Source of the DNA: Rhodospirillaceae bacterium SYSU D60007
GTDB lineage: Bacteria; Pseudomonadota; Alphaproteobacteria; Reyranellales; Reyranellaceae
Length of the DNA: 64,000 nucleotides
NCBI GenBank assembly: GCA_003574685.1
Contig: QOCQ01000003.1
Span: 186,001-250,000, forward strand
Direction of reading: 5' to 3'
Below the pieces are notes generated by a model. That model was not told the DNA's origin, ran no database searches, and saw only the letters and a program-made list of their open reading frames with translations. This document shows, one piece after another, positions 41,623 through 51,134 of the stretch (the stretch's first letter is position 1; the number at the start of each line of letters is the position of its first letter). The position numbers and the translations under genes are program-made.

Positions 41623-42333
41623 ATGAACGACACGGGTGGCCTGACAGCAGCGGATTTCAAGGCACTCAGAGCACTGGATACGCCGACGGTCTGCAATGCG
41701 CTTGAACTCGTGGCACCGCAACGCCGCCTGCACGGCTACAACACCCAGCCACTGCGCTGTCTTTATCCCGACCTGCCGCCGATGGTCGGTTTTGCCCGCA
41801 CCGGTACGATCCGCGCCGCCGAACCATCGTTTCGCCAGCCCGACGAAGATCGCGCCATGCGGCTGCGCTGGTACGAGTACGTCGACAAGGGGCCGAAGCC
41901 GTCCGTTGTGCTGTTGCAGGACCTGGATGCGCTCCCGGGTTACGGATCGTTCTGGGGTGAGGTAAACAGCCACGTCCATCGCGGCCTTGGCGCATTGGGG
42001 GTCATCACCAACGGTTCGGTGCGTGACATCCCCATGAATGCGAAGGGCTTCCAGATGCTGGCCGGCTCGGTTATGCCAAGCCATGCCTGGGTACACGTCG
42101 TGGATGTCGGCGTCCCCGTGAGCGTTTGTGGCATGTCCGTCCGGTCAGGCGACCTGATCCATGCAGACATGCACGGCGCGGTGGTCATCCCGCTCGACGT
42201 GGCCAGAAAGGTTGCCGACGCTGCAAAACTGTTGGCCCGCCGCGAGGCTGTCATCATCAACGCCTCGAAGAAGAAAGGCTTCAGCTTCGAAAAACTGGCG
42301 CAGGCAATGAAGGACTCCGCCGACATTCACTAG
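41623..42333 (+). CDS. RraA-like family protein (dimethylmenaquinone methyltransferase / HMG-aldolase fold)
   Basis: RraA-fold protein of 236 residues. The pattern is LDTPTVCNALEL at the N-terminus, then WGEVNSHVHRGLGALGVITNGSVRDI, with the R-D pair that in class II HMG/CHA aldolases binds substrate and metal, and GDLIHADMHGAVVIP. Members can be pyruvate-type aldolases or oxaloacetate decarboxylases. ATG 41623 has GGAGG. It is convergent with an HpcH/HpaI aldolase gene, with the shared stop CTAG at 42330-42333, at the edge of the sugar-ABC catabolic island. Confidence 0.85.
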   Translation: MNDTGGLTAADFKALRALDTPTVCNALELVAPQRRLHGYNTQPLRCLYPDLPPMVGFARTGTIRAAEPSFRQPDEDRAMRLRWYEYVDKGPKPSVVLLQDLDALPGYGSFWGEVNSHVHRGLGALGVITNGSVRDIPMNAKGFQMLAGSVMPSHAWVHVVDVGVPVSVCGMSVRSGDLIHADMHGAVVIPLDVARKVADAAKLLARREAVIINASKKKGFSFEKLAQAMKDSADIH

Positions 42334-43121
42334 TACGGGCCGGTGGGCTTGGCCGGGGTTGTGCCTGTCTTCATGTCGGCTACTGCTGCCTTTGCGGCAT
42401 TCATGAGCAGCGCGTTGTCAGCGAGGATCGTCACGAACTGATAGCCCCACCCGATCGCCTGCTTCGCATAGGCCGTCGAGGCGCAATGCAGCCCGGCATG
42501 GACCTTGTGCTTCCGGGCCGCTTCGAGGATGTGCCTGATCGTGTCGACCATGAAGGGGTCGGTATGGTCGCCGCGCGGCTCCTTGCCCAGTGAGAGGCCG
42601 AGATCGGCGGGACCAACATAGATACCGTCCAGGCCGGAAACACCCAAAATCTCGTCGAGATTGTCGAGCGCCTTGCGCGTCTCGATCATCGCCATGGTGA
42701 CGATCTGGCTGTTGGCCTCCTTCAGATAGTCTGCCCCGCCCCACCAGGCAGCGCGTGTCGGCCCCACGCTGCGATACCCTGCCGGGGCGTAGCGACAGGC
42801 GCCGACGAAAGCCTCACACTCGGCGCGGCTGTTGATCATCGGGCAGATCACACCCATCGCGCCGGCATCGAGCATCTTCATGATGATGCCCGGCTCATTC
42901 CAGGGCACACGGCACAACGGCATGGTCGCGGTCGTACAGACTGCCTGCATCATGCCGACGCCGGTCTGGTAGTCGACAAGGCCATGCTGCAGGTCGATGG
43001 TCAGCGAATCCCACCCCGCCTGGGCCATGTTCTCGGCCGAGATGCTGCTGGGTATGCCGAGCCAGCCATTGACCACGGCGCCGCCCGCTGCCCAGATCCG
43101 CTTGACGGTATTCTCCCGCAC
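42330..43121 (-). CDS. HpcH/HpaI-family aldolase
   Basis: Class II pyruvate-dependent aldolase of 263 residues. The pattern is NTVKRIWAAGGAVVNGWLGIPS, DLQHGLVDY, and the metal ligands in MIETRKALDN (Glu) and YVGPADLGLSLG (Asp). I choose the GTG at 43121 because GTGGAGGCGGGC precedes it and it gives the family N-terminus; the frame is open to ATG 43283. It faces the tandem binding-protein genes across a 265-base divergent promoter region and probably acts in the same pathway. Confidence 0.88.
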   Translation of the reverse strand: MRENTVKRIWAAGGAVVNGWLGIPSSISAENMAQAGWDSLTIDLQHGLVDYQTGVGMMQAVCTTATMPLCRVPWNEPGIIMKMLDAGAMGVICPMINSRAECEAFVGACRYAPAGYRSVGPTRAAWWGGADYLKEANSQIVTMAMIETRKALDNLDEILGVSGLDGIYVGPADLGLSLGKEPRGDHTDPFMVDTIRHILEAARKHKVHAGLHCASTAYAKQAIGWGYQFVTILADNALLMNAAKAAVADMKTGTTPAKPTGPY

Positions 43122-43386
43122 GCCCGCCTCCACGTTGATTGCTGCTTCGGCGCGATCCTCGTCTTCCGCAAAGCCTCCTGTCAAATGGGCCCCTGCAAGT
43201 GAGCAGCCAGCCGCCATGCGATGTCGTGAGGCAGTCATGCGCGACATTGGGTATGGACCTTCTGCCGCCAATTCGCATAGCATTGCGGCGAAGCACCAGG
43301 CAGAAGTGCGCGGGCGTGCCGGACCGGAACGCGCCGAAGAGATCGTCGCCGGCTTGCGAAAACCGGCGCACCACGGAGGAACCGCA

Positions 43387-44721
43387 ATGACTCATAATGT
43401 AACTCGCAGAAGGGTGACCAAGACGGCGCTCGCGTCGACCGCGCTGGTCGGCATGCCGTTCGTGCACGGCGCGCGTGCCGCCGGTTCGATTTCGGTTGGC
43501 TTCTGGGACCACTGGGTACCCGGTGCCAACAAGGCGACGACCGAACTCGTCAACGAATGGGCGGCGAAGGAAAAGGTCGAAGTCAAGATCGACTACATCA
43601 CGTCGCAGGGCAACAAGCTGCTGCTGACCATCGCCGCCGAGGCGCAGGCGAAGTCGGGCCACGACATCATCGCCATGGCCACCTGGGATCCGGCGGACAA
43701 GGCAGACGCGCTTGAACCCGTCAACGACATCATGGACGCCCTGATCAAGCAGAACGGGACCGTCAATGGTACCGTGGAGTACCTGGGCAAGCAGGGTGGC
43801 AAGTGGCTGGCAGTGCCCGCGACGGTCGGCAGCCAGATCAAGGGCCCCTGCTCGCGCATTGACCTGATGAAGAAGCATGCGGGAATCGACGTACAGGCGA
43901 TGTACCCCGCAGGCTCGCCGCCGAAGGCCGACGACTGGACCTATGACACCTTCCTCAAGGCCGCGGAGGCGTGCCACAAGGCCGGCCATTCGATCGGCAT
44001 CGGCCTCGGCACGACATCCGATTCGGTCGATTCAGTGGGTGCCATCTTCCACGGGTTTGGCGCGGACCTTGTCGACGCCAAGGGCAACATCACCGTCAAG
44101 TCGGACAACGTTCGCCAGGCGCTCGACTACTTCAAGCGTCTCGTGGCTTTCCTGCCGCCGGATGCACCGGCGTGGGACGATGCCTCGAACAACAAGTGGC
44201 TGGTGTCCGGCCGTGGTGCCATGATCATGAATCCGCCAAGCGCCTGGGCCGTGGCCAAGCGCGACGCACCGCAGGTTGCCGAGCAGTGCTGGACCCATGG
44301 CATGGCCAAGGGTCCGAAGGGACGCTTTGGTCCCTTCCTGCCGTTCTTCTGGGGCATCTGGAACTTCAGCAAGAACAAGGCAGCGGCCAAGAGCCTCGTT
44401 ACCTTCCTGTCGCAGCCCAGTTCGGTCGAGAAGATGGTGGTGGCCAGCGGCGGCTACGACCTGCCGTCCTTCTCCAAGCTGACGACGCTGCCGGTATGGG
44501 CTAACGCGGAGCCCCCCAAGGGGACGCTGTACCACTACGCCAATCCGCACGACCATCAGACACTGTCGATCGCGGCCGCACCGGCGCCGCCGAAGATCGC
44601 CCAGCAGATCTACAGGCAGGGCGTGCAGACGAAGATGGTGGTCCGCCACTTCCAGGGCGAGTCGGCCGAAAAGACGATCGCGTGGGCGGCCAGCGAACTC
44701 GAAGGGTTCATGCGCACATAG
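43387..44721 (+). CDS. sugar ABC transporter substrate-binding protein, paralogue 1
   Basis: Family 1 extracellular solute-binding protein of 444 residues. The N-terminus MTHNVTRRRVTKTALASTAL looks like a Tat signal (RRR then hydrophobic stretch, AxA cleavage near HGARAA). The start has GGAGGAA. The mature protein opens SISVGFWDHWVPGANKATTELVNEW. It is closely similar along its whole length to the next gene. It is the first gene of the ABC operon, followed by an intercistronic 12-base-pair stem-loop. Ligand not known; probably a sugar or polyol. Confidence 0.92.
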   Translation: MTHNVTRRRVTKTALASTALVGMPFVHGARAAGSISVGFWDHWVPGANKATTELVNEWAAKEKVEVKIDYITSQGNKLLLTIAAEAQAKSGHDIIAMATWDPADKADALEPVNDIMDALIKQNGTVNGTVEYLGKQGGKWLAVPATVGSQIKGPCSRIDLMKKHAGIDVQAMYPAGSPPKADDWTYDTFLKAAEACHKAGHSIGIGLGTTSDSVDSVGAIFHGFGADLVDAKGNITVKSDNVRQALDYFKRLVAFLPPDAPAWDDASNNKWLVSGRGAMIMNPPSAWAVAKRDAPQVAEQCWTHGMAKGPKGRFGPFLPFFWGIWNFSKNKAAAKSLVTFLSQPSSVEKMVVASGGYDLPSFSKLTTLPVWANAEPPKGTLYHYANPHDHQTLSIAAAPAPPKIAQQIYRQGVQTKMVVRHFQGESAEKTIAWAASELEGFMRT

Positions 44722-44737
44722 GTTGATCTGGACGGAT

Positions 44738-44765
44738 GCCGGGCGGGCCGCGTGGCTCGCCCGGC
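44738..44765 (+). other. intercistronic stem-loop between the two binding-protein genes
   Basis: GCCGGGCGGGCC (44738-44749) pairs with GGCTCGCCCGGC (44754-44765), 12 base pairs including one G-U, closing a GCGT tetraloop. It begins 17 bases after the first binding-protein stop. No T-run follows, so it is more likely an mRNA-stabilising or processing element than a terminator. Confidence 0.75.
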
Positions 44766-44820
44766 TCCGCGGCGGATTCGAGCCATCAGAGCGGGCAAAT
44801 AGCCATCCAGGGAGGGGCAA

Positions 44821-46152
44821 ATGTCGGGCTCCAGGCTTTCTCGGCGCACGTTTCAGCGACTGGCTGCCGGCACCGCACTGGCTGCCCCCTTTGTCCGCGG
44901 CGCACATGCCGCCGGCAAGATTTCGATCGGCTTCTGGGATCACTGGGTCCCGGGCGCCAACAAGGCGACGACAGACCTCTGCAATGAATGGGCCGCGAAG
45001 GAAAAGGTCGAGGTTCAGATCGACTACATTACCTCGCAGGGCAACAAGAACCGGCTGACCATAGCCGCCGAGGCGCAGGCGCGCGCCGGCCATGACATCA
45101 TGGCGATGCCCTCGTGGGAGCCGCACGACAAGGCCAAGCTGATGGAGCCGCTGGACGACCTGATGGAGCCGCTGATCAAGGCCAACGGCGCCGTCAATCC
45201 GACGGTCGAATATCTGGGCAAAGCCGACGGTCACTGGCTCGTGGTGCCAGCCACAGCCGGCAGCCAGATCAAGGGCCCATGCTCGCGCATTGATCTGTTG
45301 AAGGAGCACGCGGGCGTTGACATCCAGGCGCTCTACCCCGCCGGCAGTCCGCCCAAGGCCGACGCGTGGACCATGGATGCGTACCTGAAGGCAGCGCAGG
45401 CCTGCCACAAGGCGGGCTTCCCCTTCGGCGTTGGTGTTGGCGGCACACCCGATTCGGTTGATACCGCTGGCGCCATCTTCTCCGCCTTCGGCGCCGTGCT
45501 CGTCGACGCCAAGGGCAACATCACGGTCAAGTCCGACACTGTCCGCCAGGCACTCGACTACTACAAGCAACTTATGGCGGTACTGCCGCCCGACGTGCCG
45601 GCCTGGGACGATGCGTCAAACAACAAGTGGCTGATCTCGGGCAAGGGCGCCGCCATCATGAACCCGCCCAGCGCCTGGGCGGTGGCCAAGCGCGACGCCC
45701 CGAAGATCGCCGAGCAGTTGTGGACCCATGGCGCGCCCATCGGGCCGAAGGGGCGCTTCGCACCGTTCGTGCCGTATTTCTGGGGCGTGTGGAACTTCGG
45801 CCGGAATAAGTCGGCGGCCAAGAGCCTGCTGCTGCACCTATCCCAGGCCTCGGCGGCCGAGAAGATGGTGGCGGCGAGCGGAGGCTACGATCTGCCGGCG
45901 TTCGAGAAGCTAACTCTCTTCAAGACATGGGTCGAGGAAGGCCCGCCGAAGGGGACGCTGTACCACTACCCCAATCCTTACAATCATCAGGTGTTGTCGA
46001 TGGCGGGTGCGCCTGCGCCGCCGAAAATCGCGGTGCAGATCTATACCCAGGCGATCATGACCAAGATGGCGGTGCGGCACTTCCAGGGCGAGGCGATGGA
46101 GAAGACGCTGGCCTGGGCGGCCAGCGAGCTGGAAGGCTTCATGCGGACGTAA
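44821..46152 (+). CDS. sugar ABC transporter substrate-binding protein, paralogue 2
   Basis: Second solute-binding protein of 443 residues with a canonical-looking Tat signal, SRRTFQRLAAGTALAAPFVRGAHA. The mature sequence KISIGFWDHWVPGANKATTDLCNEW is nearly that of paralogue 1, and both share the CSRID, AGSPPKAD, DDASNNKW, NPPSAWAVAKRDAP and GGYDLP blocks. A tandem duplication is evident. GGGAGGGG precedes the start. It is followed by another perfect stem-loop and then the two permeases, so one membrane complex may serve two binding proteins of different specificity. Confidence 0.93.
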   Translation: MSGSRLSRRTFQRLAAGTALAAPFVRGAHAAGKISIGFWDHWVPGANKATTDLCNEWAAKEKVEVQIDYITSQGNKNRLTIAAEAQARAGHDIMAMPSWEPHDKAKLMEPLDDLMEPLIKANGAVNPTVEYLGKADGHWLVVPATAGSQIKGPCSRIDLLKEHAGVDIQALYPAGSPPKADAWTMDAYLKAAQACHKAGFPFGVGVGGTPDSVDTAGAIFSAFGAVLVDAKGNITVKSDTVRQALDYYKQLMAVLPPDVPAWDDASNNKWLISGKGAAIMNPPSAWAVAKRDAPKIAEQLWTHGAPIGPKGRFAPFVPYFWGVWNFGRNKSAAKSLLLHLSQASAAEKMVAASGGYDLPAFEKLTLFKTWVEEGPPKGTLYHYPNPYNHQVLSMAGAPAPPKIAVQIYTQAIMTKMAVRHFQGEAMEKTLAWAASELEGFMRT

Positions 46153-46156
46153 CAAC

Positions 46157-46187
46157 GTTCGGAGCGCAGGCATGCCGCGCTCCGAAC
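46157..46187 (+). other. perfect stem-loop between binding-protein 2 and the permease gene
   Basis: GTTCGGAGCGC (46157-46167) and GCGCTCCGAAC (46177-46187) are exact complements around a 9-base loop, starting 5 bases after the stop of paralogue 2. No T-run follows. This placement after a binding-protein gene matches elements that stabilise the upstream message in ABC operons. Confidence 0.78.
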
Positions 46188-46209
46188 AGGGTGAGAGCGA
46201 GGAACATTC

Positions 46210-47142
46210 ATGGCTGATATCGCGGTATCGCGTGCCGGCACAGTAAACGGCGCCGGCGGCCGGACCAGCCTGCACCGGCTGATGCAGCGCAAGTCTACCG
46301 TGGCCTTCCTGATGGCCCTGCCGCTGATCACTGTGATCGTGCTGCTGGTCGTCTATCCGGCAATCTATTCGCTGCATCTGGCGACGCTGAACAAGTCGAT
46401 GGAGCGCTTTGTCGGGTTCGGCAACTTCACTTTCCTGTTCGGGCGCGAGACGTTCTGGCTGGTCGTCAAGCAGTCGTGCATCTTCGCCATCACGGCTGTT
46501 GTGTTCAAAGCGCTGATAGGCTTCGTCGTGGCGCATTTCGTGCACAACATCCCCAGCAAGGGGCAGCGCAAGTGGCGGGGCATGCTGCTCGTGCCATGGG
46601 TCATCCCGCCGGCGATGAGCACGCTTGCCTGGCTGTGGCTGTTCGATCCCTCCTACAGCGCCTTCAACTGGATCCTGGCCCTGTTCGGGATCGACCCGGT
46701 TCCGTGGACGGGCGACGCCTACTGGGCGCGCTTTTCGGTCATCCTGGTCAACATCTGGATCGGTGCCCCGTTCTTCATGATCATGTATCTGGCCGCGCTG
46801 AAGTCGGTACCCGAGCAACTCTACGAAGCCGCCGCGATTGACGGCGCCACATGGTGGCAGCGCATCTGGTACGTGACCTTGCCGATGATGCGCAACATTA
46901 TCGCGATCACCACGCTGTTCTCGCTGATCGTCACGTTCGCGAACTTCGATATCGTGCGCGTGCTGACGGCCGGCGGCCCCCTCGACCACACCCATGTGTT
47001 CGCCACCTGGGCCTTCCGTGTGGGCATCGAGGGCGGCGACATCCCGCTGGGCGCGAGCGTGTCGCTGTTCATGGTGCCGATCCTGGCCGTGGCGGCCTGG
47101 TTTATCCTGCGCGACATCACCAAGCGGGGGAATGAAGCATGA
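46210..47142 (+). CDS. sugar ABC transporter permease (MalF/UgpA-type)
   Basis: Inner-membrane permease of 310 residues with six hydrophobic segments. The ATPase-coupling EAA loop is seen as YEAAAIDGATWWQRIWYVTLPMM. The first helix (STVAFLMALPLITVIVLLVVYPAIYSLHLA) is typical of CUT1-family permeases. GCGAGGAAC lies before the start. The last codons overlap the next permease start (ATGA at 47139-47142), so the two subunits are translationally coupled. Confidence 0.93.
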   Translation: MADIAVSRAGTVNGAGGRTSLHRLMQRKSTVAFLMALPLITVIVLLVVYPAIYSLHLATLNKSMERFVGFGNFTFLFGRETFWLVVKQSCIFAITAVVFKALIGFVVAHFVHNIPSKGQRKWRGMLLVPWVIPPAMSTLAWLWLFDPSYSAFNWILALFGIDPVPWTGDAYWARFSVILVNIWIGAPFFMIMYLAALKSVPEQLYEAAAIDGATWWQRIWYVTLPMMRNIIAITTLFSLIVTFANFDIVRVLTAGGPLDHTHVFATWAFRVGIEGGDIPLGASVSLFMVPILAVAAWFILRDITKRGNEA

Positions 47143-48050
47143 CCGCCGTCACTGCCAGCGATGCCGTGGCCGCGCCACGGCCGAAGTACGGCAGCATCAG
47201 CAAAAGCCGCCGGTGGGCGCTGCGCTGGTCCTACTTCTTCCTCGTGCTGTTCGCGATCTTCTTCCTGACGCCGCCCATATACATGTTCATCACCTCGCTG
47301 AAGAGCAGCGCGGAAATCTCGGCGGCGACCAATCCGTGGTGGGTGTTCGAGCCGACGCTGGAAAACTACATCGAACTCCTGACCCAGAACCAGTACCTGA
47401 TCTTTTTCCGCAACTCGGCGATTGTCTCGGTCTGCGTCGTATCGATTACCATGATCATCAGCGTGCTCGCGGCCTTCGCGCTGGCCCGGATGAAGTTCTG
47501 GGGATCGGCAACTCTCGCAACCGGTGTGTTCCTTACCTACCTGATCCCGGAAACCCTGCTGTTCATCCCGCTCTTCAAGACGTTTGCGTTCGTGCGCGAC
47601 ACGACGGGCATCGAGCTGATGAACCACTGGTGGACGCTCATCATCCTTTATCCGACCCTGACGGTGCCGTTTTGCACCTGGATCATGATCGGCTACTTCG
47701 CCAGCATCCCCAAGGAACTGGATGAGGCGGCGCTGATCGACGGTGCGACATGGCTGCAGACGCTTACCAAGATCTTCATTCCGGTGGCGCTGCCCGGCCT
47801 CATCGCGGCCACCATCTTCGCCTTCACGGTTTCGTGGGCGCAGTTCCTGTATCCGCTCGCCTTCACGACCTCGACTGACCAGCTTGTGCTGCCGGTCGGC
47901 ATCGTCACCACCCTGATCAAGGGCGACGTGTTCAACTGGGGCCAGATCATGACTGGTGCCCTGCTGGGCGCCGCCCCGCCGCTGATCATCTACGCCTTCC
48001 TAATGGACTACTACATCGCCGGCCTGACTGCCGGCGCCACCAAGGGCTGA
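47139..48050 (+). CDS. carbohydrate ABC transporter permease (MalG/UgpE-type)
   Basis: Second permease, 303 residues, six hydrophobic segments. The EAA loop is DEAALIDGATWLQTLTKIFIPVALPG. The first helix is SYFFLVLFAIFFLTPPIYMFITSLKS. It overlaps the previous permease by 4 bases and is followed 29 bases later by the ATPase gene. It forms a heterodimer with the upstream permease in CUT1-type systems. Confidence 0.93.
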   Translation: MTAVTASDAVAAPRPKYGSISKSRRWALRWSYFFLVLFAIFFLTPPIYMFITSLKSSAEISAATNPWWVFEPTLENYIELLTQNQYLIFFRNSAIVSVCVVSITMIISVLAAFALARMKFWGSATLATGVFLTYLIPETLLFIPLFKTFAFVRDTTGIELMNHWWTLIILYPTLTVPFCTWIMIGYFASIPKELDEAALIDGATWLQTLTKIFIPVALPGLIAATIFAFTVSWAQFLYPLAFTTSTDQLVLPVGIVTTLIKGDVFNWGQIMTGALLGAAPPLIIYAFLMDYYIAGLTAGATKG

Positions 48051-48079: not shown

Positions 48080-49180
48080 ATGGCACAGGTTTCGTTGCGC
48101 AAGGTCGTGAAGCTCTACGACCAGACGCCCGCCGTTCGCGGCATCGATCTCGAGATCGCGGACAAGGAGTTCATCGTGCTGGTCGGGCCGTCCGGCTGCG
48201 GCAAGAGCACGACCCTGCGCATGATCGCCGGGCTGGAGGAGATTACTGACGGGCAGATCGCGATTGGTGGTGACGTCGTCAACGACGTCCCGCCCAAGGA
48301 TCGCGACATCGCAATGGTGTTCCAGAACTATGCGCTCTATCCCCACATGAGCGTGTTCGAGAACATGTCGTTCGGCCTGCGGCTCAAGCGTGTGGCGAAA
48401 GACGAGATCCGCCGACGGGTGGACGACGCGGCCCGCATTCTCGACATCACTGAGCTACTAGACCGCAAGCCCAAGCAGCTTTCCGGCGGCCAGCGCCAGC
48501 GCGTGGCAATGGGCCGCGCCATTGTGCGCGATCCCAAGGTGTTCCTCTTCGACGAGCCGCTGTCCAACCTCGACGCCAAGCTTCGCGTGCAGATGCGCAC
48601 CGAGATCAAGAAAGTACACCAGAAGGTGCGGACGACCACGGTCTACGTCACCCATGACCAGGTCGAGGCGATGACGCTGGCCGACCGCGTCGTGGTCATG
48701 AATGGCGGCATTATCGAGCAGGTCGGAGCGCCCAACGATCTCTATCATTCGCCGCAGACCAAGTTCGTAGCCGGCTTCATCGGATCGCCGGCGATGAACT
48801 TTCTCCCCTGCCGGATCGAGGAGGCAGCGGGAGCCCTGCGGGTGCGCCTGTCCGACAATCTGTCGTTCCCGGTGCCCGAGGACCGCACGGCGCGCTACAA
48901 GCCGCATGCCGGCAAAACCAGCCTGATGTTCGGCTTGCGCCCGGAGCACATCACCGAGGTGCCGCGGCACGTCGAACCAAACCAGCATCCCTTCGAGGTC
49001 ACGATCGAAGTGACGGAGCCGATGGGCATGGAGACGCTGGTCTACTTTACCATCGACGGCACTGAAATCTGCGGCCGGGTCAATCCCAATGCCGGCGCCA
49101 CCGACGGCGGCAAGATGAAGCTGCTGGCCGATCTGAACAACATGCACATCATCGACGACACGACGGCCAGGGTGCTCTAG
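48080..49180 (+). CDS. sugar ABC transporter ATP-binding protein (MalK/UgpC-type)
   Basis: ATPase of 366 residues. Walker A is GPSGCGKSTTLRMIAGLE, the signature LSGGQRQRVAMGRAIVRDPKV, Walker B FLFDEPLSNLDAKLR, and the switch is YVTHDQVEAM. The C-terminal TOBE/OB region (about 240-366; GLRPEHIT, GMETLVYFTIDG) is typical of the CUT1 subclass that can also be a regulatory site. It is the last gene of the transporter and is followed by a terminator-like structure at 49197-49238. Confidence 0.94.
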   Translation: MAQVSLRKVVKLYDQTPAVRGIDLEIADKEFIVLVGPSGCGKSTTLRMIAGLEEITDGQIAIGGDVVNDVPPKDRDIAMVFQNYALYPHMSVFENMSFGLRLKRVAKDEIRRRVDDAARILDITELLDRKPKQLSGGQRQRVAMGRAIVRDPKVFLFDEPLSNLDAKLRVQMRTEIKKVHQKVRTTTVYVTHDQVEAMTLADRVVVMNGGIIEQVGAPNDLYHSPQTKFVAGFIGSPAMNFLPCRIEEAAGALRVRLSDNLSFPVPEDRTARYKPHAGKTSLMFGLRPEHITEVPRHVEPNQHPFEVTIEVTEPMGMETLVYFTIDGTEICGRVNPNAGATDGGKMKLLADLNNMHIIDDTTARVL

Positions 49181-49261: not shown

Positions 49262-50041
49262 ATGGCCGCTCTGGAAGGAAAGATCGCCTGGGTGACAGGC
49301 GCCGGTACGGGCATCGGACAAGCTGCGGCCGTAGCCCTCGCCCGCGAAGGGGCGACAGTCGTGCTGACTGGCCGCCGCAAGGAGCCGCTGGACGAAACCG
49401 TGGCGGCCATTGCGAAGGCAGGTGGCAAGGCAGTCGCCAAACCAGGCGACATGATGAAGGCCGAAATGGTCAATCGGGTGGTCGCTGACATCGACAAGGA
49501 GTTCGGCCGGCTCGACATCCTGGTCAACAATGCCGGCCTCAATATTACCGAGCGGAACTGGAAACAGCTTACGCCGGAGGGGCTGGACACCGTGGTCCAG
49601 GGAAACCTGTCGAGCGCGTTCTACTGCGCGATGGCCGTCCTGCCGATCATGCGGCGCCAGAGAGATGGCGTCCTGATCCACACATCGTCATGGGCAGGAC
49701 GCTGGGTCAGCCCTCTCAGTGGTTCGGCCTACAATGCTGCCAAGCACGGGGTTGTGGCGATGAGCCACGGCATCAACATGGAGGAATGCGTCAACGGAAT
49801 CCGTTCCTGCGTGGTCTGCCCAGGCGAGGTCGCGACGCCCATCCTGGACAAGCGTCCTGTTCCGGTGAGCCAGGAAGACCGGGCCAAGATGGTGCAATCC
49901 GAGGATTGCGGCGACCTGATCCGCTACATTGCCTGCCTGCCGCCGCACGTCTGCATCAACGAGGTCGTGATCAGCCCGACCTGGAATCGCGGCTACGTCG
50001 CGGCCCTTCAGCAGCCGCACGTTGGCGCCAGCAAGAAGTAA
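49262..50041 (+). CDS. SDR family oxidoreductase
   Basis: Classical short-chain dehydrogenase of 259 residues. The cofactor loop is TGAGTGIGQAAAVALAREG, NNAG is present, and the catalytic region is SAYNAAKHGVVAMSHG. It resembles the serine/3-hydroxyacid type subgroup. It begins 24 bases after the terminator-like hairpin behind the ABC operon, and the Ldh2-family gene starts 6 bases after its stop. Probably an oxidation step of the compound brought in by the transporter. Confidence 0.88.
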   Translation: MAALEGKIAWVTGAGTGIGQAAAVALAREGATVVLTGRRKEPLDETVAAIAKAGGKAVAKPGDMMKAEMVNRVVADIDKEFGRLDILVNNAGLNITERNWKQLTPEGLDTVVQGNLSSAFYCAMAVLPIMRRQRDGVLIHTSSWAGRWVSPLSGSAYNAAKHGVVAMSHGINMEECVNGIRSCVVCPGEVATPILDKRPVPVSQEDRAKMVQSEDCGDLIRYIACLPPHVCINEVVISPTWNRGYVAALQQPHVGASKK

Positions 50042-50047
50042 GATCGT

Positions 50048-51134
50048 ATGAGCATTACAATCGCTGCCTCGTCGCTGGCGGGTTCGTACGGGACATCTTC
50101 GTCGCGGCGGGCTGCTCTTCCGACGAGGCGGAGCGTATCGGCAAATACCTGGTCGAGGCCAATCTTACCGGGCATGACAGCCACGGGGTCATCCGCGTGC
50201 CGCGCTATGTGCAGATGCTCAGGGATGGCGCCATCGTCCCGGACGTGACCGTCGACGTGGTGATCGACACGCCGGTACTGGCTGTTGTGGACGGCAAGTA
50301 TGGGTTCGGCCAGACAGTTGCCCCACAGGCGGTGCGCCTCGGTATCGACAAGTGCAAGCGCATGGGCCTGAGTGCGGTGGCCCTGCGCAATGCCGGCCAT
50401 ACGGGCCGGACCGGCGACTTCGCCGAGATGGCGGCGGCGGAAGGGCTCGTATCGGTCCACTTCGTGAACGCGCGCGGCAGCGTGCTGGTCGCCCCCTATG
50501 GCGGCGTCGAGCGCCGCTTCTCGACGGCGCCCTTCTGCGTCGGCATCCCCCGCGCCGAAGCGCCGCCGCTGGTGCTAGACTTCGCGACCTCGATCGTCGC
50601 CGAGGGCAAGGTGCTGGTGGCCAGCCAGGGTGGCAAGGCCATCCCGGCCGATGCATTGATCGGACCCGGCGGCGCCACCAGCGACGATCCTCATCTGCTC
50701 TATGGCGACTACACGCCTGATGGACCGCGAGTCCATCGCAACGGAAAGGGCGCGATCCGGGCATTCGGCGAACACAAGGGTTCGGGGCTTGCCTTCATGT
50801 GCGAGCTGCTCGGCGGTGCTCTCACCGGCAATGGTGCGACGCAGGACGGGCAGCGCTTCGCCAACGCATGTTCTCGTTCTATGTGAACCCCGGCCTCGTC
50901 GATCCGGCGGACTTCTTCGGACCAGAGGTGGCCCGGTACACCGCCTTCGTGAAGGCCTCGCGTCCCGCGACGTCGGAACAGGAAGTGCTCGTGGCCGGTG
51001 AACCGGAGATTCGCATGCGTGCGAAGCGCCAGGCCGAAGGTCTTCCCCTGCCCGATGACACATGGACCAGCATTGTCAATGCCGCGCGGCTCGTTGGCCT
51101 TGACGAAAGGCGAATCCAGCAGGTGGCATTCTGA
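50048..51134 (+). pseudogene. malate/L-lactate (Ldh2) family dehydrogenase, two single-base frameshifts
   Basis: The three reading-frame pieces together make a complete enzyme of about 362 residues. The start MSITIAASSLAG (50048-50082) continues as FVRDIFVAAGCSSDEAERIGKYL in another frame, then GMFSFYVNPGLVDP in a third from about 50866. Both breaks are explained by one missing G: in GCGGGTTC (50078-50085) and in AACGCATG (50863-50870). Conserved NAD-dependent Ldh2 segments (GHDSHGVIRVPRY, RNAGHTGRTGDFAEMAA, FGEHKGSGLAFMCELLGGALTG) are intact. It may be a real pseudogene, or two sequence errors in G-rich positions. Family members oxidise malate, lactate, ureidoglycolate or similar 2-hydroxy acids. 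Confidence 0.85.

Follow-up and report, generated by a model that had tools for sequence, protein, structure and literature searches.

Why should one sugar importer keep two binding-protein genes side by side in front of a single set of permease genes? The question is raised by a stretch of 64,000 nucleotides from the Rhodospirillaceae bacterium SYSU D60007 (contig QOCQ01000003.1, positions 186,001 to 250,000; hereafter the window), in which two adjoining genes encode closely similar binding proteins (SBPs). The reading we prefer, at a probability of roughly 70%, is that of a CUT1-type importer for a sugar or a sugar-derived acid, with two old SBP paralogues serving one MalF-MalG-MalK2-like translocator. 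Each SBP would be exported in the folded state through Tat, would hold its ligand between its two lobes and would then dock onto the common permease. The copies most likely would have overlapping ligands with unequal preference or affinity, comparable to HisJ and ArgT on HisQMP.

Organization of the locus

The features discussed below are the following (coordinates are those of the window):

42330..43283, minus strand: HpcH/HpaI-type aldolase, divergent neighbour of SBP copy 1
43387..44721, plus strand: SBP copy 1, 444 residues, Tat-type signal TRRRVTK (Pfam, BLASTP, AlphaFold2 model)
44738..44765, plus strand: stem-loop 3′ of copy 1, 12 pairs, loop of 4
44821..46152, plus strand: SBP copy 2, 443 residues, Tat-type signal SRRTFQR (Pfam, BLASTP)
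46157..46187, plus strand: stem-loop 3′ of copy 2, 11 outer and 2 inner pairs
46210..47142, plus strand: MalF-like permease (BPD_transp_1)
47139..48050, plus strand: MalG-like permease (BPD_transp_1), 4-base overlap with the MalF-like gene
48080..49180, plus strand: MalK/UgpC-type ATPase (PRK11650, 512.8 bits against a cut-off of 432)
49262..50041, plus strand: SDR oxidoreductase, 3′ of the MalK-type gene
50083..51122, plus strand: Ldh_2-type (malate/L-lactate) dehydrogenase, reading frame broken near 50866

The initial annotation described two adjacent genes for matching proteins of 444 and 443 residues, followed by a single MalF/MalG/MalK set, and both statements hold. The copies align end to end with 320/444 identities (72%), 83% positives and one gap (BLASTP, full length), and 3′ of them lie two BPD_transp_1 permeases and one ATPase, that is, adjoining paralogous SBPs with one permease set, as in a shared-translocator pair. 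The ATPase scores above the cut-off for OB_MalK and slightly under it for TOBE_2 (20.4 against 21 bits), and the set has the CUT1/MalFGK-type composition of two permeases with one MalK-type ATPase bearing an OB/TOBE domain. SBP_bac_8 is found in both SBPs (E 1.7e-17 in copy 1, 3.2e-12 in copy 2) and SBP_bac_1 in copy 1 only, and with either SBP, as with the MalF-like and MalG-like proteins, every NCBIfam model stayed below its cut-off. Copy 1 starts at an in-frame ATG at 43387, within a longer open frame (42997-44721), at a position matched by the starts of its orthologues, and a GGAGG-like ribosome site, judged by eye, stands close 5′ of the ATG in both copies. A promoter scan found none, shuffled sequences yielding 0.7.

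Both intercistronic gaps fold strongly, with -52 kcal/mol (z -2.79) for 44722-44820 and -24 kcal/mol (z -3.14) for 46153-46209. Perfect stems of at least 8 pairs occur in 47 of 81 related gaps, the window counted, with differing sequences; the gap between copies 2 and 3 of Reyranella sp. CPCC 100927 has one of 4 pairs only. The malE-malF gap is the precedent for such stem-loops, and a stem-loop after each SBP gene may likewise keep SBP transcripts above those of the permeases.

Within its own genome (5.34 Mb, 58 contigs) copy 1 matches itself and copy 2, then three proteins at no more than 28% identity each, and one MalF of this importer's kind is found at E<=1e-60. Tandem SBPs as such are a recurrent feature of this genome, which has further pairs at C22:24821-27381, C17:33261-35737, C1:300518-303287 and C2:58383-60854, and four Peripla_BP_6 proteins in series at C56:184073-189298; one of the other pairs is of SBP_bac_8 type with its own MalFGK-like genes (L104).

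Relatives and copy number

A genome scan found 388 stretches encoding a relative, of which the best 80 were taken, giving 79 loci. Among these (best 80 of 388, several contigs ending nearby) 77 have one SBP, 71-77% identical to copy 1, Vineibacter terrae (L001) has two and CPCC 100927 (L002) four. Among the matches listed for the 75 genomes searched, at least six genomes carry at least two full-length neighbouring SBPs (G000, G003, G005, G057, G072, G074). Tandem SBP pairs have arisen independently in two further genera of the family, one with L099/L100 and the other with L101, which has no permease nearby.

SBPs of this family also outnumber their permeases. In 12 genomes, chosen by hand rather than at random and tallied by eye, there are 43 SBPs at E<=1e-100, 33 of them with at least 60% identity (a fragment among them), and 16 MalF proteins at 60% identity or more plus three at 41-42%, which is about two SBPs per cognate permease. 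An SBP without a MalF match in the fetched DNA occurs in 12/85 loci, some of them short contigs, and such SBPs limit the case for sharing, as they leave room for one copy to work with another translocator. Orphans of this sort, with no related MalF/G/K match in the fetched flanks, are L058, L077, L101, L096 and L044. In L103:9282-10994 (G019:C20) a single frame of 579 residues covers query residues 5-286 followed by 155-443; this internal in-frame duplication stems perhaps from unequal exchange between tandem copies, or from an assembly fault.

Twin-arginine-type signals

Both SBPs were said to carry twin-arginine-like signals, which a pattern rule bears out: the motifs TRRRVTK (copy 1) and SRRTFQR (copy 2) each lie N-terminal to a hydrophobic core. 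On this motif, and with TatC encoded in the genome, both SBPs are probably exported folded via Tat. The accompanying view, that such export is unusual for SBPs of ABC importers, does not stand up for this group. RRx[FLIVMY] occurs within the first 25 residues of 94/94 family proteins, the window's two included, and 91/94 also pass a rule requiring a hydrophobic core, counts that come from a crude pattern rule rather than TatP or SignalP, with no control set of non-secreted proteins. By the same rule 32/60 other fetched SBPs of the genome pass, namely 6/15 of SBP_bac_8, 13/23 of SBP_bac_5 and 13/22 of Peripla_BP_6 (22 fetched of 32 places above the cut-off), the rule having missed a plain RR in L111, L113, L114 and L117, and having picked in L106 an RR that precedes the likely start. 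Many Tat-dependent SBPs are likewise predicted in Brucellaceae in a survey that also cites R. leguminosarum and Halobacteraceae, according to the part of it drawn on here (PMC3305326). A literature search on Tat-dependent SBPs of Bradyrhizobium found no paper. The notion of Tat-type SBPs as a rarity in these bacteria has to be corrected.

Age and history of the pair

The SBP tree holds 56 of the 94 SBPs, rows more than 92% alike and one row of 156 residues being left out. Copy 1 groups with the first copies of V. terrae and CPCC 100927 (support 95/63, moderate), and copy 2 with the last ones, copy 2 of V. terrae and copy 4 of CPCC 100927 (100/100). A recent duplication, with the window's copies as sisters, is rejected (AU p 0.0003). 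Since copies 1 and 2 are not each other's closest relatives, the pair is, on this tree, older than the split from V. terrae, and it predates the separation of SYSU D60007, V. terrae and CPCC 100927 whether copy 2 arose by duplication or by transfer. The dN/dS ratio of the two copies is 0.24, and against their V. terrae orthologues it is 0.18 and 0.125; on account of these values both copies are judged to be under purifying selection and retained as functional.

How copy 2 came to its place is a separate matter. In the free tree its group is joined to four betaproteobacterial SBPs (95/84), with Bradyrhizobium next (82/88), which tells against duplication in place and would follow if copy 2 had come from a different lineage and been placed next to the resident SBP, its present function unchanged; the permeases of those genomes, in a quick tree, group with neither. 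We nevertheless regard such a transfer as unlikely. A single clade of all eight Vineibacter-group copies, though absent from the free tree, is not rejected (p 0.246), and copy 2 is 74% identical to L069, one of these four betaproteobacterial rows, against 76-80% to copies 1-3 of CPCC 100927. The permeases of the window, V. terrae and CPCC 100927 form one clade in a quick search.

Gene conversion within the window's pair was considered and rejected, as in 0/17 alignment windows does the likeness between the copies exceed that of each to its V. terrae orthologue. The two V. terrae copies themselves are 85-92% alike at the DNA level in alignment windows starting at codons 276-376 (the C-terminal part), where the orthologue pairs of V. 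terrae and SYSU D60007 are 74-87% alike. This may be the trace of partial gene conversion in V. terrae. Copy 1 of CPCC 100927 is 83-88% like copy 2 of V. terrae in the same part, and slow change of the C-terminal part together with a faster copy 1 in SYSU D60007 would also do as an explanation.

The end branch of the window's copy 1 is indeed longer (0.19, against 0.08 for copy 1 of V. terrae), and it is copy 1, for this reason, that would be the likelier of the two to have passed to another permease or to a sensor. Several loci in which members of the family stand apart from a related MalF lend something to this possibility, which we hold to be very unlikely: in three genomes copy 1 stands first and copy 2 last, adjoining the permeases, and whether copy 1 shows a higher rate changes with the outgroup chosen (p 0.0002 to 0.42), so that faster evolution of copy 1 was dropped as a claim.

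Fold and ligand cleft

The preferred reading, two SBPs sharing one translocator with overlapping ligands, can be examined further in the predicted structure. Modelled with AlphaFold2 (mean pLDDT 88.2, pTM 0.86), copy 1 has the sugar-binding SBP fold, with VIA Z values of 34.0-37.4 among the 50 matches listed; 7v09 (37.4), MalE3 6dtr (36.9) and the beta-glycoside-binding protein 7c6y (36.8) lie within 1 of each other and count as tied. Foldseek with the same model returned the same kinds of SBP. Copy 2, at 72% identity to the modelled copy 1, can be assigned the oligosaccharide-binding SBP fold.

Ten predicted cleft loops were picked by hand from secondary structure, PDB alignment and the mutants named in PDB titles (W41, W67, E117, W177). 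The predicted stacking aromatics W40, W43, W100, W263, W271, W287, W322, W325, Y357, Y382 and Y384 are common to both copies. Positions fixed for different residues in the two orthologue groups (each of three proteins) include 78, 99, 222, 255, 318 and 397, and at 98, 101, 107, 108, 217 and 395 the groups have no residue in common, one of them being variable. Residue 101, which adjoins W100, is L or W in 35/40 single-copy proteins; 3/3 copy-2 proteins have E here, and copy 1 of the window has D. Taken together this favours one ligand class for both copies and a possible shift of preference.

The simplest alternative is gene dosage, where both copies would bind one ligand equally and copy 2 would merely raise the supply of SBP. 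The identical aromatics would fit it, as would the loops, which are identical at 115/143 residues (80%) against 191/269 (71%) elsewhere, a weak difference (p 0.044) in segments chosen post hoc, and so would the C-terminal likeness of the V. terrae copies, if it reflects partial gene conversion. The copies have, however, been separate since before the species split, and the orthologue groups have no residue in common at five positions around W100 (98, 99, 101, 107, 108) or at seven others (78, 217, 222, 255, 318, 395, 397). We consider dosage unlikely, and modest divergence of ligand preference likelier than dosage pure and simple, because the aromatics are the same while group-specific differences fall in the N-lobe loop around W100 and in some others. 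The initial annotation, which had offered divergence in ligand or redundancy and had tied simple dosage to identical cleft residues with Sec-only signals, is thus upheld in part: loop positions do differ and the signals are Tat-like, whereas strong divergence in ligand is not indicated, since the predicted stacking aromatics are identical.

A broader version of the preferred reading can be put forward tentatively, as a conjecture less likely true than false. One translocator would be served by a waxing and waning pool of Tat-exported SBPs, tandem (2-4 copies, separately in three genera of this alphaproteobacterial family) and orphan, with variation in the W100 region tuning the proteins to related ligands. 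If the copies do differ in ligand, loci whose permeases are closely related and which have 1, 2 or 4 copies would form a compact natural set on how extra SBPs widen the range of an importer; if they do not, this is ordinary transporter biology.

Neighbouring genes and a possible ligand

In 9/79 related loci a homologue of the HpaI-type aldolase adjoins the SBP gene on the minus strand, and in 17/79 an SDR homologue lies 3′ of MalK (both from the best 80 of 388). The Ldh_2 gene is present in 3/3 Vineibacter/Reyranella-type loci scanned, right after the SDR gene in two (L004, L094) and one gene further in L100. In the Bradyrhizobium locus L029 a D-2-hydroxyacid dehydrogenase gene lies 3′ of MalK instead, and the flanks fetched for the Bradyrhizobium loci gave no SDR or aldolase match. 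The predicted neighbours (HpaI aldolase, SDR, Ldh_2 and RraA-like proteins, and the D-2-hydroxyacid dehydrogenase of L029) suggest, as a reasonable guess, that the imported ligand is a sugar acid or hydroxyacid. The Ldh_2-type gene of the window (50083-51122) is 88% identical to an intact relative, then 71% past the frame change near 50866, and is either a frameshifted gene or marked by a sequencing error. A literature search on sugar importers of Reyranella found nothing on this transporter among the papers listed, and the portion of PMC3454389 available, where TatP is used beside SignalP on Sinorhizobium SBPs, gives no ligand for this SBP family.

Comparison with known systems

Neither the arrangement of the SBPs nor their probable export route is of a new kind among bacteria. 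By analogy, we infer that the pair works like HisJ/ArgT-HisQMP or DppA1-A5/DppBCDF, with several SBPs on one translocator. HisJ and ArgT bear Sec signals, and they differ from the present SBPs in belonging to another family and to an amino-acid importer. They are similar to them in that HisJ and ArgT (LAO) are 70% identical, are encoded in one cluster, argT-hisJQMP, and use one translocator, HisQMP2, as described in parts of PMC6640053 and PMC5708682. In Pseudomonas aeruginosa, going by a part of PMC4206461, the several orthologous SBPs DppA1-A5 serve DppBCDF, which has more than one SBP per translocator in common with the window and differs in being a peptide importer. MalE-MalFGK2 (CUT1) and the beta-glycoside-binding protein of the 7c6x series resemble the present system in SBP fold and transporter composition, at 14-19% identity among the structural matches listed; unlike them, the window has two SBPs instead of one, and Tat-type signals. 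The single-SBP relatives of Reyranella and Bradyrhizobium share the SBP family, the Tat motif and mostly the MalFGK order, and are set apart by having one SBP where SYSU D60007 has two.
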